Shown here one piece after another: positions 8,349 through 35,195 of a stretch of DNA of 64,000 bases. Under the pieces are notes generated by a model, which was not told the origin of the DNA, searched no databases, and worked only from the letters and a program-made list of their open reading frames with translations. The stretch spans positions 62,001 to 126,000 of the forward strand of contig NZ_QXCP01000006.1 of the NCBI RefSeq assembly GCF_003711805.1, in the 5' to 3' direction. The stretch comes from Brachybacterium sp. EE-P12 (lineage in GTDB: Bacteria; Actinomycetota; Actinomycetes; Actinomycetales; Dermabacteraceae). The translations under genes were made by a program, and so were the position numbers. Within the stretch, counting starts at the first letter, position 1, and every line of letters starts with the position of its first letter.

Positions 8349-8384
8349 GACGAAGGGCCCCTCCCGCGGGAGGGGCCCTTCGTC
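8349..8384. terminator. Perfect 36-bp palindromic bidirectional terminator
   Basis: Positions 8349-8384 equal their own reverse complement. The arms run GACGAAGGGCCCCTCCC outward from a GC centre. It lies between the converging rsrA and bL37 genes, 54 nt past the rsrA stop and 24 nt from the bL37 stop, and can serve both. Confidence 0.85.
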
Positions 8385-28728: not shown

Positions 28729-29634
28729 TCAGCCCTTGATCGCCCCGGCGGCGATGTTCGCGATGAAGTGCCTCGACCCGATGATGAACACCCCGATGAG
28801 GGGGACGACGCTGATGAGAGCGCCCGCCATCACCATCCCGTAGTCGGTGAGATACAGGGAGTTGAGGTTCTGCAGCGCTGTCTGCAGGGTCTGCCGCTCG
28901 GGATTCACCAGGACGATCAGCGGCCAGACGTAGTCGTTCCAGGCCGCGATGAAGGTGAAGATCCCGAGGAACGCGAGGCCGCCGCGCAGCAGCGGCACGG
29001 CGATCCTCCAGTAGGTGGTGAAGAACCCTGCGCCGTCGATGCGCGCGGACTCCACCAGCTCATCGGGGATCGATCCCGCCGCCATCTGCCGCAGCAGGAA
29101 GATTCCGAAGGCGTTCGCGGCGCCGGGGACGATGAGCGCCTGCAGCGTGCCCACCCATCCGATCTGGGACATCAGGATGAAGCTGGGCACGAGCGAGAGG
29201 CTCCCGGGCACCAGCATCGTCGCGATCAGCAGGACGAACAGCACGTTCTTCCCGGGGAAGTCGAACTTCGCGAAGGCGAACGCCGCGAGGGAGTCGAAGA
29301 ACATCACCAGCAGCGCACAGGCGCCGGAGACGATCACCGTGTTCGTGAGGGCCTGCAGCATGTCGACGCTCTGGACGACGTTCCGGACGTTCTCGACGAA
29401 GCTGTCTCCGAAGGTCAGCTTCGGCGGGTAGCCGAAGATCTCCGCCGTGGTCGAGGTGGACATGACGACCAGCCAGTAGAACGGGAAGATCGACAGGACC
29501 ACGCCGATCAGCACGCACAGGTGGACGACGATCTTTGCGACCAGGGAACGGGCGCCGTAGTGCGGTGAGATCGCACGGCGAGTCGACTTCCGTCCGGAGG
29601 CCGTGGTGCGGGGCAGGGGCGGGGCGGCGGTCAT
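28729..29634 (-). CDS. Sugar ABC transporter permease, MalG type
   Basis: Inner-membrane component of a carbohydrate uptake system, 301 residues with about six membrane helices. The EAA loop that contacts the ATPase is ESARIDGAGFFTTYWRIAVP. The N-terminus is basic and the sequence ends HFIANIAAGAIKG, typical of CUT1 MalG-like permeases. The ATG overlaps the previous permease's stop (ATGA). Last gene of the binding protein-permease-permease operon; no ATPase gene follows. Confidence 0.93.
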   Translation of the reverse strand: MTAAPPLPRTTASGRKSTRRAISPHYGARSLVAKIVVHLCVLIGVVLSIFPFYWLVVMSTSTTAEIFGYPPKLTFGDSFVENVRNVVQSVDMLQALTNTVIVSGACALLVMFFDSLAAFAFAKFDFPGKNVLFVLLIATMLVPGSLSLVPSFILMSQIGWVGTLQALIVPGAANAFGIFLLRQMAAGSIPDELVESARIDGAGFFTTYWRIAVPLLRGGLAFLGIFTFIAAWNDYVWPLIVLVNPERQTLQTALQNLNSLYLTDYGMVMAGALISVVPLIGVFIIGSRHFIANIAAGAIKG

Positions 29635-30632
29635 CGGCGGGAGTCCTTCCGTGCGCGGGGACGCCGGGCGGGGCCGTCACCGCGCCCGGAGACCAGGCGC
29701 CAGTTGATGATGGCGAAGACCGCGGCGATGAGGAAGAGTGCCCAGGCGATGGCGGAGCCGTAGCCGAAGTCGAACTGGGTGAACGCCTGGTTGTACTGGT
29801 ACAGCACGATCGTCATGCCGGCCTCGCCGGCGCCGCCGCCGTCGCCGAGCAGCACCTGCGGCTCGGTGAACAGGCTGAGACCGCCGATGGTGGAGGTGAT
29901 GACGGTGAAGAGGATGATCGGCCGCATCAGCGGGATGGTGATGCGGAAGAACACCTGCAGGAGGCTCGCGCCGTCGACGCGTGCGGCGTCGTAGAGGTCG
30001 GTGGGGATGGACTGCAGCCCCGCGAGGTAGATGATCGCGTTGTAGCCGGTGAAGCGCCAGATGACCATGGCGGCGATCGTGATCTTGATGCCCCATGGAC
30101 TCGACAGCCACGGCACCGCGTCCAGGCCCAGAGCGGTCATGGCGGAGTTCACGAGGCCGAAGGTGTCGGAGAAGACGGAGCCGAACACGATCGCCATCGC
30201 CACCATCGAGGTGACGTTCGGCAGGAAGAACGCGACGCGGTACAAGGGTGTGAAGCGGATGTTCTGGTGCAGCAGGAAGGCGATGGCCATCGCCAGGAAC
30301 AGCATCGGCACCGTGGAGAGGATCCAGATGATGAAGGTGTTCCCCACCGCGTTCCAGAAGCGATCGTCGGTGACGAGGAACTGGTACTGGGCCAGCCCCA
30401 CGAAGGAGATCTCGCCCATCCCGTCCCAGTCGGTGAAGGACAGCACGATCGAGAACAGGATGGGGAACAGTCCGAAGACGGCGAACAGGAGGTAGAACGG
30501 AGAGATCGCGATGTACAGGGGGAGGTTCTCGCGACGTCTCCGACGTCGGCGCGCTCGCGTGTCCCTCCGTCCTGGCGCGGGAGCGGGCGCGGGGGCGTCG
30601 GGTCGGGCGATGGCGGGCGGTGCGGCCGTCAT
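29631..30632 (-). CDS. Sugar ABC transporter permease, MalF type
   Basis: A 333-residue CUT1 permease. After a Pro/Ala and Arg-rich cytoplasmic N-terminus come the first helix (ISPFYLLFAVFGLFPILFSI) and the usual FTDWDG motif, then five more helices. The EAA loop is DAARVDGASLLQVFFRITIP. Overlaps both neighbours by 4 nt (ATGA), so the three transporter genes are translationally coupled. The substrate is unknown. Confidence 0.93.
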   Translation of the reverse strand: MTAAPPAIARPDAPAPAPAPGRRDTRARRRRRRRENLPLYIAISPFYLLFAVFGLFPILFSIVLSFTDWDGMGEISFVGLAQYQFLVTDDRFWNAVGNTFIIWILSTVPMLFLAMAIAFLLHQNIRFTPLYRVAFFLPNVTSMVAMAIVFGSVFSDTFGLVNSAMTALGLDAVPWLSSPWGIKITIAAMVIWRFTGYNAIIYLAGLQSIPTDLYDAARVDGASLLQVFFRITIPLMRPIILFTVITSTIGGLSLFTEPQVLLGDGGGAGEAGMTIVLYQYNQAFTQFDFGYGSAIAWALFLIAAVFAIINWRLVSGRGDGPARRPRARKDSRR

Positions 30633-31963
30633 ACCTCGACACCTCGCTTCGTCAGCACCCGCTCGGCCTGGGACAGGGCATCCGCCCAAGCCTGATCGGG
30701 GTCCTTGCCGGTCGTCTCGACGTTGGCGATCTCGAAGGTGAAGGATCCCCCGATCATCGTCTCCCAGGCACTGATGAAGCTGGTCGGCACGGTCTCGGCC
30801 GCCGTGGAGAAGAAGTCCAGCGGATCCTGGTCGCCGAAGAAGGTCCCCGAGTAGCTCAGGTCGGTGAACGAGTCGGGGGTGGAGGGGAACAGCTGGACGT
30901 CCTCGTACGCGAGAGCCTGGTTGGACGGCGAGTTGATCCATGTCAGGAACGCCAGGGCGGCCTCGGGATCCTTGCAGGTGTGGGGGAGCGCGGCGAAGGA
31001 GCCGCCGTTGTTCCCGGCGCGGACCGGCTGTGAGGCGATCCGCCAGCTTCCCTCGGTGTCCGGAGCGGACTCGGCGAGGATCTGCGTCCACCAAGCCGCG
31101 CCGATGTTGCCCGCGGTGCGTCCGGAAGACCACGCCGCGTTCTGATCGGTGCCCCGATCGCGAGGGATCTTCGCGGTGAGCCCGGCCTCGATGGCGGTGA
31201 TGGTGACGTCCCATGCCCTGCGCACGGCGGAGCCGTCCTCGAGGTAGAGGGCGTTGTCGTCGGTGTCGAAGTACCGTTCCGGGCTCGAGTTCAGATATCC
31301 CTCGAAGATGTTCTGGGCGTCGTTCACGAGGAAGGAGCCGGCGCTGTCCTTCAGCTCCGCGCCCAGGGCGATCCAGTCCTCCCAGGTGGTGATCGCCGCA
31401 GAGACGTCCTCGGGCGAGCTGGGCAGACCTGCGTCCTCGAAGACGTCCTGACGGTAGAAGAAGCCCGTGGGGCCGATGTCGAGCGGGAAGAAGCAGAACC
31501 GGCCCTTCGGTGTGATGCCGAGCTCCCACTTCCACTCGTAGAAGTCGCTCTTGACGGCGTCCGCGCCGAGTTCGTCCAGGTCGAGGAAGAGGTCCTCGTT
31601 GGTGAAATACAGGGCGTTGTTCGAGTTGATGTACGTGATGTCGGGGATGTATGCCTTCCCCGCGAGGCTCGTGCGGAGCTTCGTGTCGAAGTTCGTGCCG
31701 ATCACGTCGGCCCTCACATGCTTGTCCGTCCCGGGGATGGCGCTGCTCGCCTGGTCGAGCAGCTCGGGGCTCGCCGACCGGTTCCAGTACCACATCACGA
31801 GTTCCGAGGGATCCTCGGAGATAGTCTCCGGGGATCCGCATCCGGCTGCCGCGAGCGGCATCAGGCCTGCGGCGCCGAGCATGAGAGCGCGGCGGGAGAG
31901 ACAGGGTCCTCCAGATGGCGGCGGCGGAAGCGGACGGGATCTGACGGTGGACAGCGGGGACAT
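30629..31963 (-). CDS. Extracellular sugar-binding lipoprotein (family 1 SBP)
   Basis: Captures the sugar outside the cell for the two downstream permeases. 444 residues with signal SRRALMLGAAGLMPLAAAGC; the lipobox is LAAAGC with Cys42, and the SRR suggests Tat-like export. The mature part has SBP family 1 features (WYWNRS, DITYINSNN, YRQDVFEDAGL, ALAFLTWINSP). ATG 31963 is chosen because AGGAGG lies 6 nt upstream and the signal peptide then fits. An in-frame GTG at 32008 lies inside the operator. Controlled by a promoter and LacI-type operator directly upstream. Confidence 0.93.
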   Translation of the reverse strand: MSPLSTVRSRPLPPPPSGGPCLSRRALMLGAAGLMPLAAAGCGSPETISEDPSELVMWYWNRSASPELLDQASSAIPGTDKHVRADVIGTNFDTKLRTSLAGKAYIPDITYINSNNALYFTNEDLFLDLDELGADAVKSDFYEWKWELGITPKGRFCFFPLDIGPTGFFYRQDVFEDAGLPSSPEDVSAAITTWEDWIALGAELKDSAGSFLVNDAQNIFEGYLNSSPERYFDTDDNALYLEDGSAVRRAWDVTITAIEAGLTAKIPRDRGTDQNAAWSSGRTAGNIGAAWWTQILAESAPDTEGSWRIASQPVRAGNNGGSFAALPHTCKDPEAALAFLTWINSPSNQALAYEDVQLFPSTPDSFTDLSYSGTFFGDQDPLDFFSTAAETVPTSFISAWETMIGGSFTFEIANVETTGKDPDQAWADALSQAERVLTKRGVEV

Positions 31964-31994: not shown

Positions 31995-32010
31995 ACGTGA
32001 ACGTTCACGT
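31995..32010 (-). promoter_or_regulatory. LacI-family operator O1 (transporter promoter)
   Basis: ACGTGAACGTTCACGT is a perfect 16-bp palindrome at 31995-32010. It starts about 3 nt downstream of the predicted start point of the transporter operon (about 32013), a repressing position. Its 12-bp core GTGAACGTTCAC recurs at 32156-32167. The central CG palindrome is typical of LacI/GalR-family sites, and a lacI gene is in the locus. Confidence 0.8.
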
Positions 32011-32019
32011 GTGACGTGG

Positions 32020-32048
32020 ATCATGGCAGGATGGGGGTGCGTCGTCAA
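32020..32048 (-). promoter_or_regulatory. Sigma-70-type promoter of the transporter operon
   Basis: On the minus strand TTGACG (32048-32043) and CATGAT (32025-32020) are separated by exactly 17 nt. The start point near 32013 is immediately followed by operator O1. Confidence 0.7.
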
Positions 32049-32116
32049 CAGGGCCGAGGCGGATCGGCGGTGCGGGACCGGCCGCTGCTCGTTGCACGCC
32101 GCCGTCGCGGATCCGC

Positions 32117-32145
32117 TTGTGGGCGGAGCCGGAACCGGATAGCGT
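32117..32145 (+). promoter_or_regulatory. Sigma-70-type promoter of the fusion oxidoreductase gene
   Basis: TTGTGG (32117-32122), a 17-nt spacer and TAGCGT (32140-32145). The predicted start point near 32152 abuts operator O2. Confidence 0.6.
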
Positions 32146-32153
32146 GCTCCGTG

Positions 32154-32169
32154 TCGTGAACGTTCACGA
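32154..32169 (+). promoter_or_regulatory. LacI-family operator O2 (oxidoreductase promoter)
   Basis: TCGTGAACGTTCACGA, a second perfect 16-bp palindrome sharing its central 14 bp with O1. The two centres are 159 bp apart, about 15 helical turns, which would allow looping by a tetrameric repressor. It begins about 2 nt after the predicted start point. Confidence 0.8.
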
Positions 32170-32202: not shown

Positions 32203-34221
32203 ATGAGCAATGCCGCCACCCCCTTCCGCTGGGCCGTCCTGGGCCCCGGCGCGATCGCCCGCCGCTTCGCCGCCCAGCTGCCCGACTCGGACCACGGTGT
32301 CCTGGTCGCCGTCGGCAGCAGCTCGGCCGAGCGGGCGCGCGCCTTCGCCGAGGAGTTCCCGCTGGCCGAGCCCGCGATCGTGGGCGACTACGAGCAGGTC
32401 CTCGCCAGCGACGAGGTCGACGCGGTGTACGTCTCCACCGTCCACACCGGTCACGCCCGTCTGGCCGCCGCGGCGCTCGAGGCCGGCAAGCACGTGCTGG
32501 TCGAGAAGCCGCTGACCCCGAACTCCGGCACCTCCATGGCCCTGCTCGATCTCGCCGCCCGCTCCGGGAAGGTGCTGCTGGAGGCGTACATGTACCGCTT
32601 CCACCCCCAGACCGCGACGGTCCTCGAGCTCGTCTCCGACGGCGCGATCGGCCAGCTCGTCCACGTCGACGCCTCCTTCTCCTTCGACACCGGATCGCGC
32701 AGCGGCCGCCTCTTCGACGCCGCCACCGCCGGCGGCGGCATCCTCGACGTCGGCTGCTACCCGCTGTCCTTCGCCCGCTTCGTCGCCGGTGCCGCCGCGG
32801 GCCGTCCGTTCGTCGAGCCCGCGACCCTCACCGGCCGCGGAGCCCTCGGGCCGACGGGCGTGGACGAGTGGGCCGCGGCCGAGCTGACCTTCCCCGGCGG
32901 CGCGACGGCGAGCCTGCGCACCGGAGTGCGCCTGGCCGATCCGCAGTCCGCCACGATCACCGGCTCCCGCGGCGTGATCCGGCTCGCCGATCCGTGGGGC
33001 CTGACCGAGCAGCAGGTCGTCGAGCTCGACGTGGTGGGCGAGGAGCCGCGCCGGATCGAGGTGCCCGCCGCCTCCGCCTACGCCCTCGAGGCCGACGCCC
33101 TGGCCCGCGCCGCCCGCGAGGGCGCCGAGGTTCCCGAGCTGACCGCCGAGAACTCCCTCGGGCAGGCCCGGGCGCTGGACGCCTGGCGCGAGGAGCTCTC
33201 GCTGCGCTTCCCCTTCGAGCAGGACACCGCGGACATCCCCACCCTCACCGGCCGGCCCCTGCAGGCCGCCAGCGTGCCCACCGGCGCCGGCGTGCCGATG
33301 GCCTACGGCACGGTCCCGGGCGTCGACAAGCAGCTCTCCCGCCTGGTCATGGGCTGCGACAACCAGATGAACCTCGCCCACGCCTCGGCGATGTTCGATG
33401 CCTTCTTCGAGATCGGCGGCACCACCTTCGACACCGCCTACATCTACGGAGGCGGGTACATCGAGCAGCTGGTGGGCCAGTGGGTGCGCAATCGCGGCGT
33501 GCGCGAGGACGTCGTGATGATCACCAAGGGGGCCCACACCCCGCACTGCGACCCCGAGTCGCTCACCCGTCAGCTCGAGGAGTCCCTCGATCGGCAGGGC
33601 ACCGACTATGCGGACCTGTACATGATGCATCGCGACAACCCCGACGTCCCCGTCGGCGAGTTCGTCGACGTCATGGACGAGCACCTGCGCGCCGGCCGGA
33701 TCCGCGCCTACGGCGGGTCGAACTGGACGCCCGAGCGCGTCGACGAGGCCAACGCCTATGCGCAGGCCAACGGCCGCACCGGCTTCACGATCCTGTCGAA
33801 CCACTTCGGGCTCGCCGAGGCGCTGGACGTGCCGTGGGCCGGCTGCGTGCACGCCACCGACCCCGACTCCAAGGCATGGCTCACCGAACGCGGCATCGCG
33901 CTGCTGCCCTGGTCCTCGCAGGCCCGCGGGTTCTTCACCGGCCGCGCCCATCCCGAGGACCGCTCGGACGCGGAGCTCGTGCGCTGCTACTACAGCGACG
34001 AGAACTTCGAGCGCCTCGCCCGCGCCCAGGAGCTCGGCGCCGAGCGCGGCGTGCCCGCCACCGCGATCGCCCTCGCCTTCGTGCTGCACCAGCAGTTCCC
34101 GACCTTCGCCCTGTTCGGGCCGCGCAGCATCGGCGAGATGCGCTCCTCCACCCTCGGCCTCGGGGTCGAGCTCAGCCCGCAGGAGATGGCCTGGCTGGAT
34201 CTCAAGGCGCCGACGCGATGA
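32203..34221 (+). CDS. Gfo/Idh/MocA oxidoreductase fused to an aldo/keto reductase
   Basis: A 672-residue two-enzyme fusion. Residues about 8-335 are a Gfo/Idh/MocA dehydrogenase: VLGPGAIARRF (nucleotide loop), HVLVEKPLTPN (catalytic Lys in EKP), LLEAYMYRFHP and GGGILDVGCYPLSF. Residues about 355-672 are an aldo/keto reductase: FDTAYIYGGG (Asp and Tyr), VMITKGAH (Lys), LYMMHRDNP (His) and LPWSSQARGF. All four AKR catalytic residues are present. The pair could oxidise and reduce two positions of one sugar or channel an intermediate; the substrate is unknown. It is transcribed from its own LacI-type operator, and the stop overlaps lacI (ATGA). Confidence 0.92.
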   Translation: MSNAATPFRWAVLGPGAIARRFAAQLPDSDHGVLVAVGSSSAERARAFAEEFPLAEPAIVGDYEQVLASDEVDAVYVSTVHTGHARLAAAALEAGKHVLVEKPLTPNSGTSMALLDLAARSGKVLLEAYMYRFHPQTATVLELVSDGAIGQLVHVDASFSFDTGSRSGRLFDAATAGGGILDVGCYPLSFARFVAGAAAGRPFVEPATLTGRGALGPTGVDEWAAAELTFPGGATASLRTGVRLADPQSATITGSRGVIRLADPWGLTEQQVVELDVVGEEPRRIEVPAASAYALEADALARAAREGAEVPELTAENSLGQARALDAWREELSLRFPFEQDTADIPTLTGRPLQAASVPTGAGVPMAYGTVPGVDKQLSRLVMGCDNQMNLAHASAMFDAFFEIGGTTFDTAYIYGGGYIEQLVGQWVRNRGVREDVVMITKGAHTPHCDPESLTRQLEESLDRQGTDYADLYMMHRDNPDVPVGEFVDVMDEHLRAGRIRAYGGSNWTPERVDEANAYAQANGRTGFTILSNHFGLAEALDVPWAGCVHATDPDSKAWLTERGIALLPWSSQARGFFTGRAHPEDRSDAELVRCYYSDENFERLARAQELGAERGVPATAIALAFVLHQQFPTFALFGPRSIGEMRSSTLGLGVELSPQEMAWLDLKAPTR

Positions 34222-35195
34222 CCTCCGCGCGCCGGGCGACGATCATCGACGTCGCCGCGAGGGCGGGGGTCTCCCGGCAGACCGTCTCGCGGGCGATGAA
34301 CGATCTGCCCGGCATCAGCGCCGCCACCCGCGACCGCGTGCTCGAGGCGGCGAAGGAGCTGAACTACCGTCCCTCCCGCTTCGGGCGCGGTCTGGTCGAG
34401 CAGGGCCCGACGACGCTCGGCCTGGTCGTCGGGAGCCTCTCGAACAGCTACTACGCGGAGCTCGGCGCGGCCGTGGTGCGCGCCTGCGCCCCGTACGGCT
34501 GGAACGTCGTCCTGGCCGAGGCCGACGACGCCCCGCAGCCCGAGCGGGTCGCCGCGGACCTCTCGCGCCGTGTCGACGCGCTGGTCGGCTACGGCGTGGC
34601 GACCGCGGGGATCCGCGGCGGCGGCATGCCGATCGTGCAGGTCGACGGCACCCCGGACCAGATCGCCGACGCGGGCGTGCTCGAGCTCCCTCGCGCCCGT
34701 GCGATGGAGGACCTCGCCGCGCACCTGCGGGAGCGGGGGGCGCGCCGCCCCGTCGTGCTCGACCTCGGCACCGGGGAGACCGGCGAGCGCTCGCGCGCGC
34801 TGGCCGGCGCCCTGTCCGGCCTCGTCGAGGGCGGGGAGGTGCCGGTGCGGACGGTGCCTGCGCGCGAGGGGCACGAGGAGGCGCTGCCGGAGCTCCTCGC
34901 GGGCGGCACCGACGTGCTCGTCGCCTTCAACGACGAGCTCGCGGTGCGGATGCTGCGGGCGCTGCGCCGCCGGGGCGTCGCCGTGCCCGAGCAGGTGCGC
35001 GTGACGGGGGTGGACGGGCTCGAGCTCTCGACCCTGGTCACCCCGGAGCTGACCACCCTCGCCCTCGACATCGACCGCGTCGCCCGGGAGACCGTGACCC
35101 TCGTTGCCGGGATGCTCGAGGGGACGGTGCCGCTCAACGGTGAGGAGGCGCACCGGCAGGTCGACTACCGACTCGTCGTGCGCGACTCCACCTGA
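34218..35195 (+). CDS. LacI-family transcriptional regulator
   Basis: A 325-residue repressor. HTH at about 8-30 ([20 protein letters not shown]), hinge helix near 50-60 ([11 protein letters not shown]), then a periplasmic-binding-protein-like effector domain ([43 protein letters not shown]). Overlap with the fusion gene (ATGA) puts it under operator O2, so it probably represses itself and both divergent operons until a sugar or sugar derivative binds. Confidence 0.93.

Follow-up and report, generated by a model that had tools for sequence, protein, structure and literature searches.

A conserved LacI-type regulon predicted by comparison of Brachybacterium genomes, with twin operators at two divergent promoters

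In the lac system of Escherichia coli the ideal operator half-site is GTGAGC, and the extra C-terminal helix of LacI is a tetramerisation helix; looping of the E. coli type needs a tetramer or dimers that interact. Throughout the LacI family the recognised motifs are typically even palindromes with a central CG, 72% of the regulators are autoregulated and the pathways controlled are mostly those of sugars (PMC4052901). An arrangement of two operators at neighbouring operons has been described for SacR (Lp_0188) of Lactobacillus plantarum, which acts on sucrose operons and for which one operator per direction was assumed (PMC2329647). A literature search for the exact motif described below found none, and another for Brachybacterium together with LacI and beta-galactosidase gave nothing relevant.

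The locus presented here belongs to Brachybacterium sp. EE-P12 and lies within a stretch of 64,000 nt that was analysed in full (the window). It comprises an ABC sugar-importer operon to the left and, divergent from it, an operon with a fused oxidoreductase gene and a lacI gene. The start points are predictions from sigma-70 boxes, with +1 placed 7 nt past the -10 box. The features are the following:

28729..29634, minus strand: ABC permease 2, UgpE/MalG-like (Pfam BPD_transp_1 8.5e-14)
29631..30566, minus strand: ABC permease 1, start approximate (Pfam BPD_transp_1 2.8e-14)
30629..31963, minus strand: extracellular solute-binding protein of the ABC sugar importer (ATG at 31963, AGGAGG upstream; Pfam SBP_bac_1 6.9e-23)
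31995..32010, no strand: putative left operator ACGTGAACGTTCACGT, a perfect 16-bp palindrome at +4 of the predicted promoter of the ABC-transporter operon
32020..32025, minus strand: predicted left promoter, -10 box CATGAT (17-nt spacer)
32043..32048, minus strand: predicted left promoter, -35 box TTGACG
32117..32122, plus strand: predicted right promoter, -35 box TTGTGG
32140..32145, plus strand: predicted right promoter, -10 box TAGCGT (17-nt spacer)
32154..32169, no strand: putative right operator TCGTGAACGTTCACGA, a perfect 16-bp palindrome at +3 of the predicted promoter of the oxidoreductase-lacI operon
32203..34221, plus strand: fused Gfo/Idh/MocA oxidoreductase-aldo/keto reductase, first gene of the right-hand operon (Pfam GFO_IDH_MocA and Aldo_ket_red)
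34218..35195, plus strand: LacI-family repressor gene, coordinates from the open reading frames (Pfam LacI 9.5e-18, Peripla_BP_3 2.1e-20)

The start codon of lacI overlaps the stop codon of the oxidoreductase gene (ATGA). By its predicted helix-turn-helix (HTH) and periplasmic-binding-protein core (PF00356, 64.2 bits for a cut-off of 27; PF13377, 73.9 bits for a cut-off of 26.5) the protein classifies as a member of the LacI/GalR family. The oxidoreductase fusion is a single protein of 672 aa. Orthologous loci are found in named Brachybacterium species with identities of 67-87%.

The two palindromes have a 12-bp core in common, GTGAACGTTCAC, as seen by inspection of the sequence, and their centres (32002.5 and 32161.5) are 159 bp apart; the initial annotation, which had reported two perfect 16-bp palindromes with a common core at this distance, was correct to the base. 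A palindrome of 16 bp is not rare here by itself, as the GC-rich window contains 8 perfect ones where ca. 3.3 are expected (an excess of ca. 2.5 times). What is rare is the common 12-bp core and its placement. The window has no exact copies of GTGAACGTTCAC other than these two, and ca. 1.1 matches with up to two mismatches are expected in it by chance. Searching the whole genome for further sites, as the same annotation had suggested, gave 4 exact copies, the pair in the window included, and a control search of the genome with the reversed pattern gave 0 matches. The longest palindrome of the window is found elsewhere, at 8349-8384; it is perfect over 36 bp (GACGAAGGGCCCCTCCCGCGGGAGGGGCCCTTCGTC) and is perhaps a bidirectional terminator.

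The promoters also stood up to inspection. All the boxes of the two -35/-10 pairs with 17-nt spacers quoted in the annotation are present, and the palindromes, which it had located 2-3 nt past the predicted divergent start points, begin by our computation at +4 on the left (minus strand) and at +3 on the right. This placement is conserved. On the oxidoreductase side a -10 box of the form TAnnnT precedes the core by an almost constant distance (3-13 nt, in most cases 9-10) in 29/30 orthologous loci, compared with a shuffled mean of 1.2 and maximum of 5, and the TTG of the -35 box is likewise conserved at its offset. On the transporter side, TTGAC precedes the core at an offset constant to within 1 nt in 14/17 orthologous loci and CAT[GA][AG]T follows at 17 nt in 11/17. 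Before the core found at lacZ (see below), TAnnnT is located 5-6 nt upstream in 13/13 cases. Because these distances from box to core are near-constant across orthologues, the location of the operators at the predicted start points would be a conserved rule and not an accident.

We extended the comparison to 38 genomes of Brachybacterium. Of these, 31 carry the oxidoreductase, in 32 loci, and 29 the exact core; the two oxidoreductase-positive genomes without the exact core have a site with one mismatch at the expected place, and in the 7 genomes without the oxidoreductase the exact core was found in 0. The oxidoreductase-side site is present in 31/32 orthologous loci, and the 32nd is interrupted by an IS element. 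In this genome, G014 (L168:3147-4433), an ISL3-type transposase gene lies directly upstream of the oxidoreductase, between the divergent promoters, and the right-hand site is gone with the transporter-side site kept, which makes it a natural operator-loss mutant. The transporter operon adjoins the oxidoreductase in 17 genomes, or 18 loci since G028 has two, and all 18 have the transporter-side site with at most one mismatch. In the 14 loci that lack the transporter operon the right-hand site stands alone (transporter-side site in 0/14). Because the transporter-side site tracks the presence of the transporter operon so strictly, it is most likely that there is one operator for each promoter. 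When the 396 genomes of the order were searched for pairs of the 14-bp site separated by 115-145 bp, a pattern that misses other spacings, three genomes were retrieved, all of them Brachybacterium, and the LacI orthologous group itself appears, as found here, only in this genus.

The other two exact copies of the core in the EE-P12 genome precede a second ABC-importer operon (C7) and the gene of a GH2 beta-galactosidase, lacZ (C15). The former adjoins GH53 galactanase genes and has a divergent sodium:solute symporter gene beside it. At lacZ the site (counted at up to 1 mismatch of 14) is found in 25/26 genomes with the LacI orthologue and 0/4 without it (Fisher p 1.8e-4; such values are indicative and overstate certainty, since the genomes belong to a single genus and have a common ancestry). 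For the second ABC operon (up to 2 mismatches) the figures are 21/27 LacI-positive and 0/3 LacI-negative genomes; those lacking LacI are G007, G012, G018, G023, G032 and G035. In G006, where the oxidoreductase has been lost and LacI kept, there are one-mismatch sites before lacI and before lacZ. The regulon thus appears to be multi-locus and of galactoside type, with lacZ and the second ABC transporter also under the local LacI. The circuit had been annotated as complete and autoregulated; autoregulation is supported by the footprinting, the co-loss and the invariant recognition helix described below, but the circuit is not complete at this locus, as the same operator precedes lacZ and the second ABC operon.

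Some further observations concern individual genes and species. G019, in which alone among the LacI-positive genomes no lacZ site could be recognised, has three operators in one intergenic region (L115:1195, 1222, 1418), two of them 27 bp apart. The GH53 galactanase was considered as a core member of the regulon and rejected, being above the family cut-off in only 6/38 genomes. In about six species (L165:3001, L173:3001, L176:3001, L190:3001, L186:3001, L154:3001) a major-facilitator transporter gene has an exact GTGAACGTTCAC at its 5' end or close to it, and the same letters could there be a start codon followed by Asn-Val-His; these copies are either candidate regulated sites or a coding coincidence.

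That the local LacI is the protein bound at these sites could not be assumed, because the genome encodes 33 LacI-family proteins, and another of them might be the main ligand of the palindromes, the local LacI having other targets. One candidate is the paralogue of the arabinose operon in the same genome (G000:C9, L274:2048, 3317, 5182), which has a YQTV helix and adjoins sites of its own, TGTGAACGTTGACA and TGATAACGTTCACA; sites like TGTGAACGTTCACA are also found upstream of araA genes in other species. Nearly the same 12-bp core is therefore common to two paralogues, and some cross-binding between them is possible. The flanks of the core, however, differ, being C...G at the local sites and T...A at the arabinose sites, so that it is a 14-bp form with C and G ends that would mark the sites of the local LacI. 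The sequence conserved at the oxidoreductase-lacI promoter is CGTGAACGTTCACG, again an even palindrome with a central CG. The recognition helix, VSRQTV[ST]RA, does not vary among 30 orthologues whose overall identity goes down to 46%; within the genome, 30 LacI-family proteins were compared and VSRQTV is confined to the local one. Across the 38 genomes operator and regulator are inherited together. We attribute the sites to the local LacI because of this invariant and unique helix, because the sites of lacZ and the second ABC operon track the presence of LacI, as does that at the locus, and because of the pattern in G006; binding mainly by another family member seems to us very unlikely. Still less credible is that the palindromes are there by chance, or have some other role such as forming short hairpins in the transcripts. 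The modest excess of perfect palindromes in the window would suit such an origin, but one genome has the same 14-bp sequence at four promoters, and about 30 species have it at the orthologous ones, with a near-fixed distance from the -10 box.

A different question is whether one LacI tetramer, or dimers that interact, could bridge both operators and repress both promoters together through a loop of 159 bp. The annotation had argued that a spacing of about 15 turns favours this, and 159 bp is indeed 15.1 turns. Besides, the nine spacings of up to 175 bp (135 to 170 bp) share a helical phase (p 0.002 in a directional test, 0.016 in the Rayleigh test), but this short-spacing subset was picked after the fact and contains near-duplicates; when all 17 are taken, over a range of 135-287 bp, no common phase emerges (Rayleigh p 0.42, or 0.16 for exact-site pairs). 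Moreover, LacI and all its complete orthologues end where the core domain ends, without a C-terminal tetramerisation extension, and 14 orthologous loci have a single site, the second appearing only with a second promoter. Published pairs of LacI-family sites in one intergenic region favour distances of 13, 22 and 32 bp, unlike the 159 bp found here (PMC4052901). Looping is not supported by these comparisons, and we regard it as improbable. Instead, LacI would bind as independent dimers.

All these data considered, it is very probable that both palindromes are operators of the LacI encoded at 34218-35195, as first annotated, and that this protein represses the ABC-importer and oxidoreductase-lacI operons, together with lacZ and the second ABC operon. 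Footprinting, co-loss and the invariant helix all favour this assignment, and the sites, the promoters and the regulator are identified by comparison among genomes. Repression is the effect that we infer, because the operators lie just downstream of the predicted start points. Without inducer, a LacI dimer would occupy each operator, covering about +3 to +19 of both divergent promoters, and would block transcription of the left ABC-importer operon and of the right oxidoreductase-lacI operon, each operator serving its own promoter. Since lacI is in the blocked right-hand operon, the repressor would limit its own synthesis. When the inducing sugar enters, LacI would be released and both promoters would open, along with those of lacZ and the second ABC-importer operon elsewhere in the genome. 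From its neighbours (LacZ and the GH53 galactanases) the inducer is somewhat more likely a beta-galactoside or galacto-oligosaccharide than something else. More speculatively, Brachybacterium might process galactosides by an oxidoreductive route not yet described and under the control of the local LacI, of which the conserved co-regulation of LacZ, two ABC importers and the fused oxidoreductase would be the sign; this we doubt.

For a sugar-uptake system of about 30 Brachybacterium species, among them the cheese-associated B. tyrofermentans, comparison has in this way fixed the probable operator (CGTGAACGTTCACG), its regulator and the greater part of the regulon, from which it can be predicted which genes are expected to be induced together. 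The contrast between RQTV with C...G and YQTV with T...A also provides a clean internal pair with which to test how LacI paralogues avoid cross-talk.

Judged against the known systems, this looks like an ordinary LacI regulon, conserved and autoregulated, in a textbook arrangement that is new as an instance and not as a principle. The galactoside-type local regulons of GanR, LacR, BgaR and others (PMC4052901) resemble it in their even palindrome with central CG, in autoregulation and in having sugar uptake and catabolic genes as targets. As in the GanR/LacR type, the same operator is found at a beta-galactosidase gene, here the GH2 lacZ of 25/26 LacI-positive genomes, but unlike in them the Brachybacterium regulon includes a fused Gfo/Idh/MocA-aldo/keto reductase. 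The twin operators of SacR (PMC2329647) have the same layout of two operators and two operons, with a different sugar and in a different bacterial phylum. Within the same genome, the LacI of the arabinose operon uses nearly the same 12-bp core and is set apart by its YQTV helix and T...A flanks. With the E. coli lac system the Brachybacterium case shares the HTH and core domains of the repressor and an operator just downstream of the start point, and its half-site, GTGAAC, is close to GTGAGC. It differs in that its LacI lacks the tetramerisation helix and in that its two sites would be the operators of two divergent promoters, not the auxiliaries of a single one.
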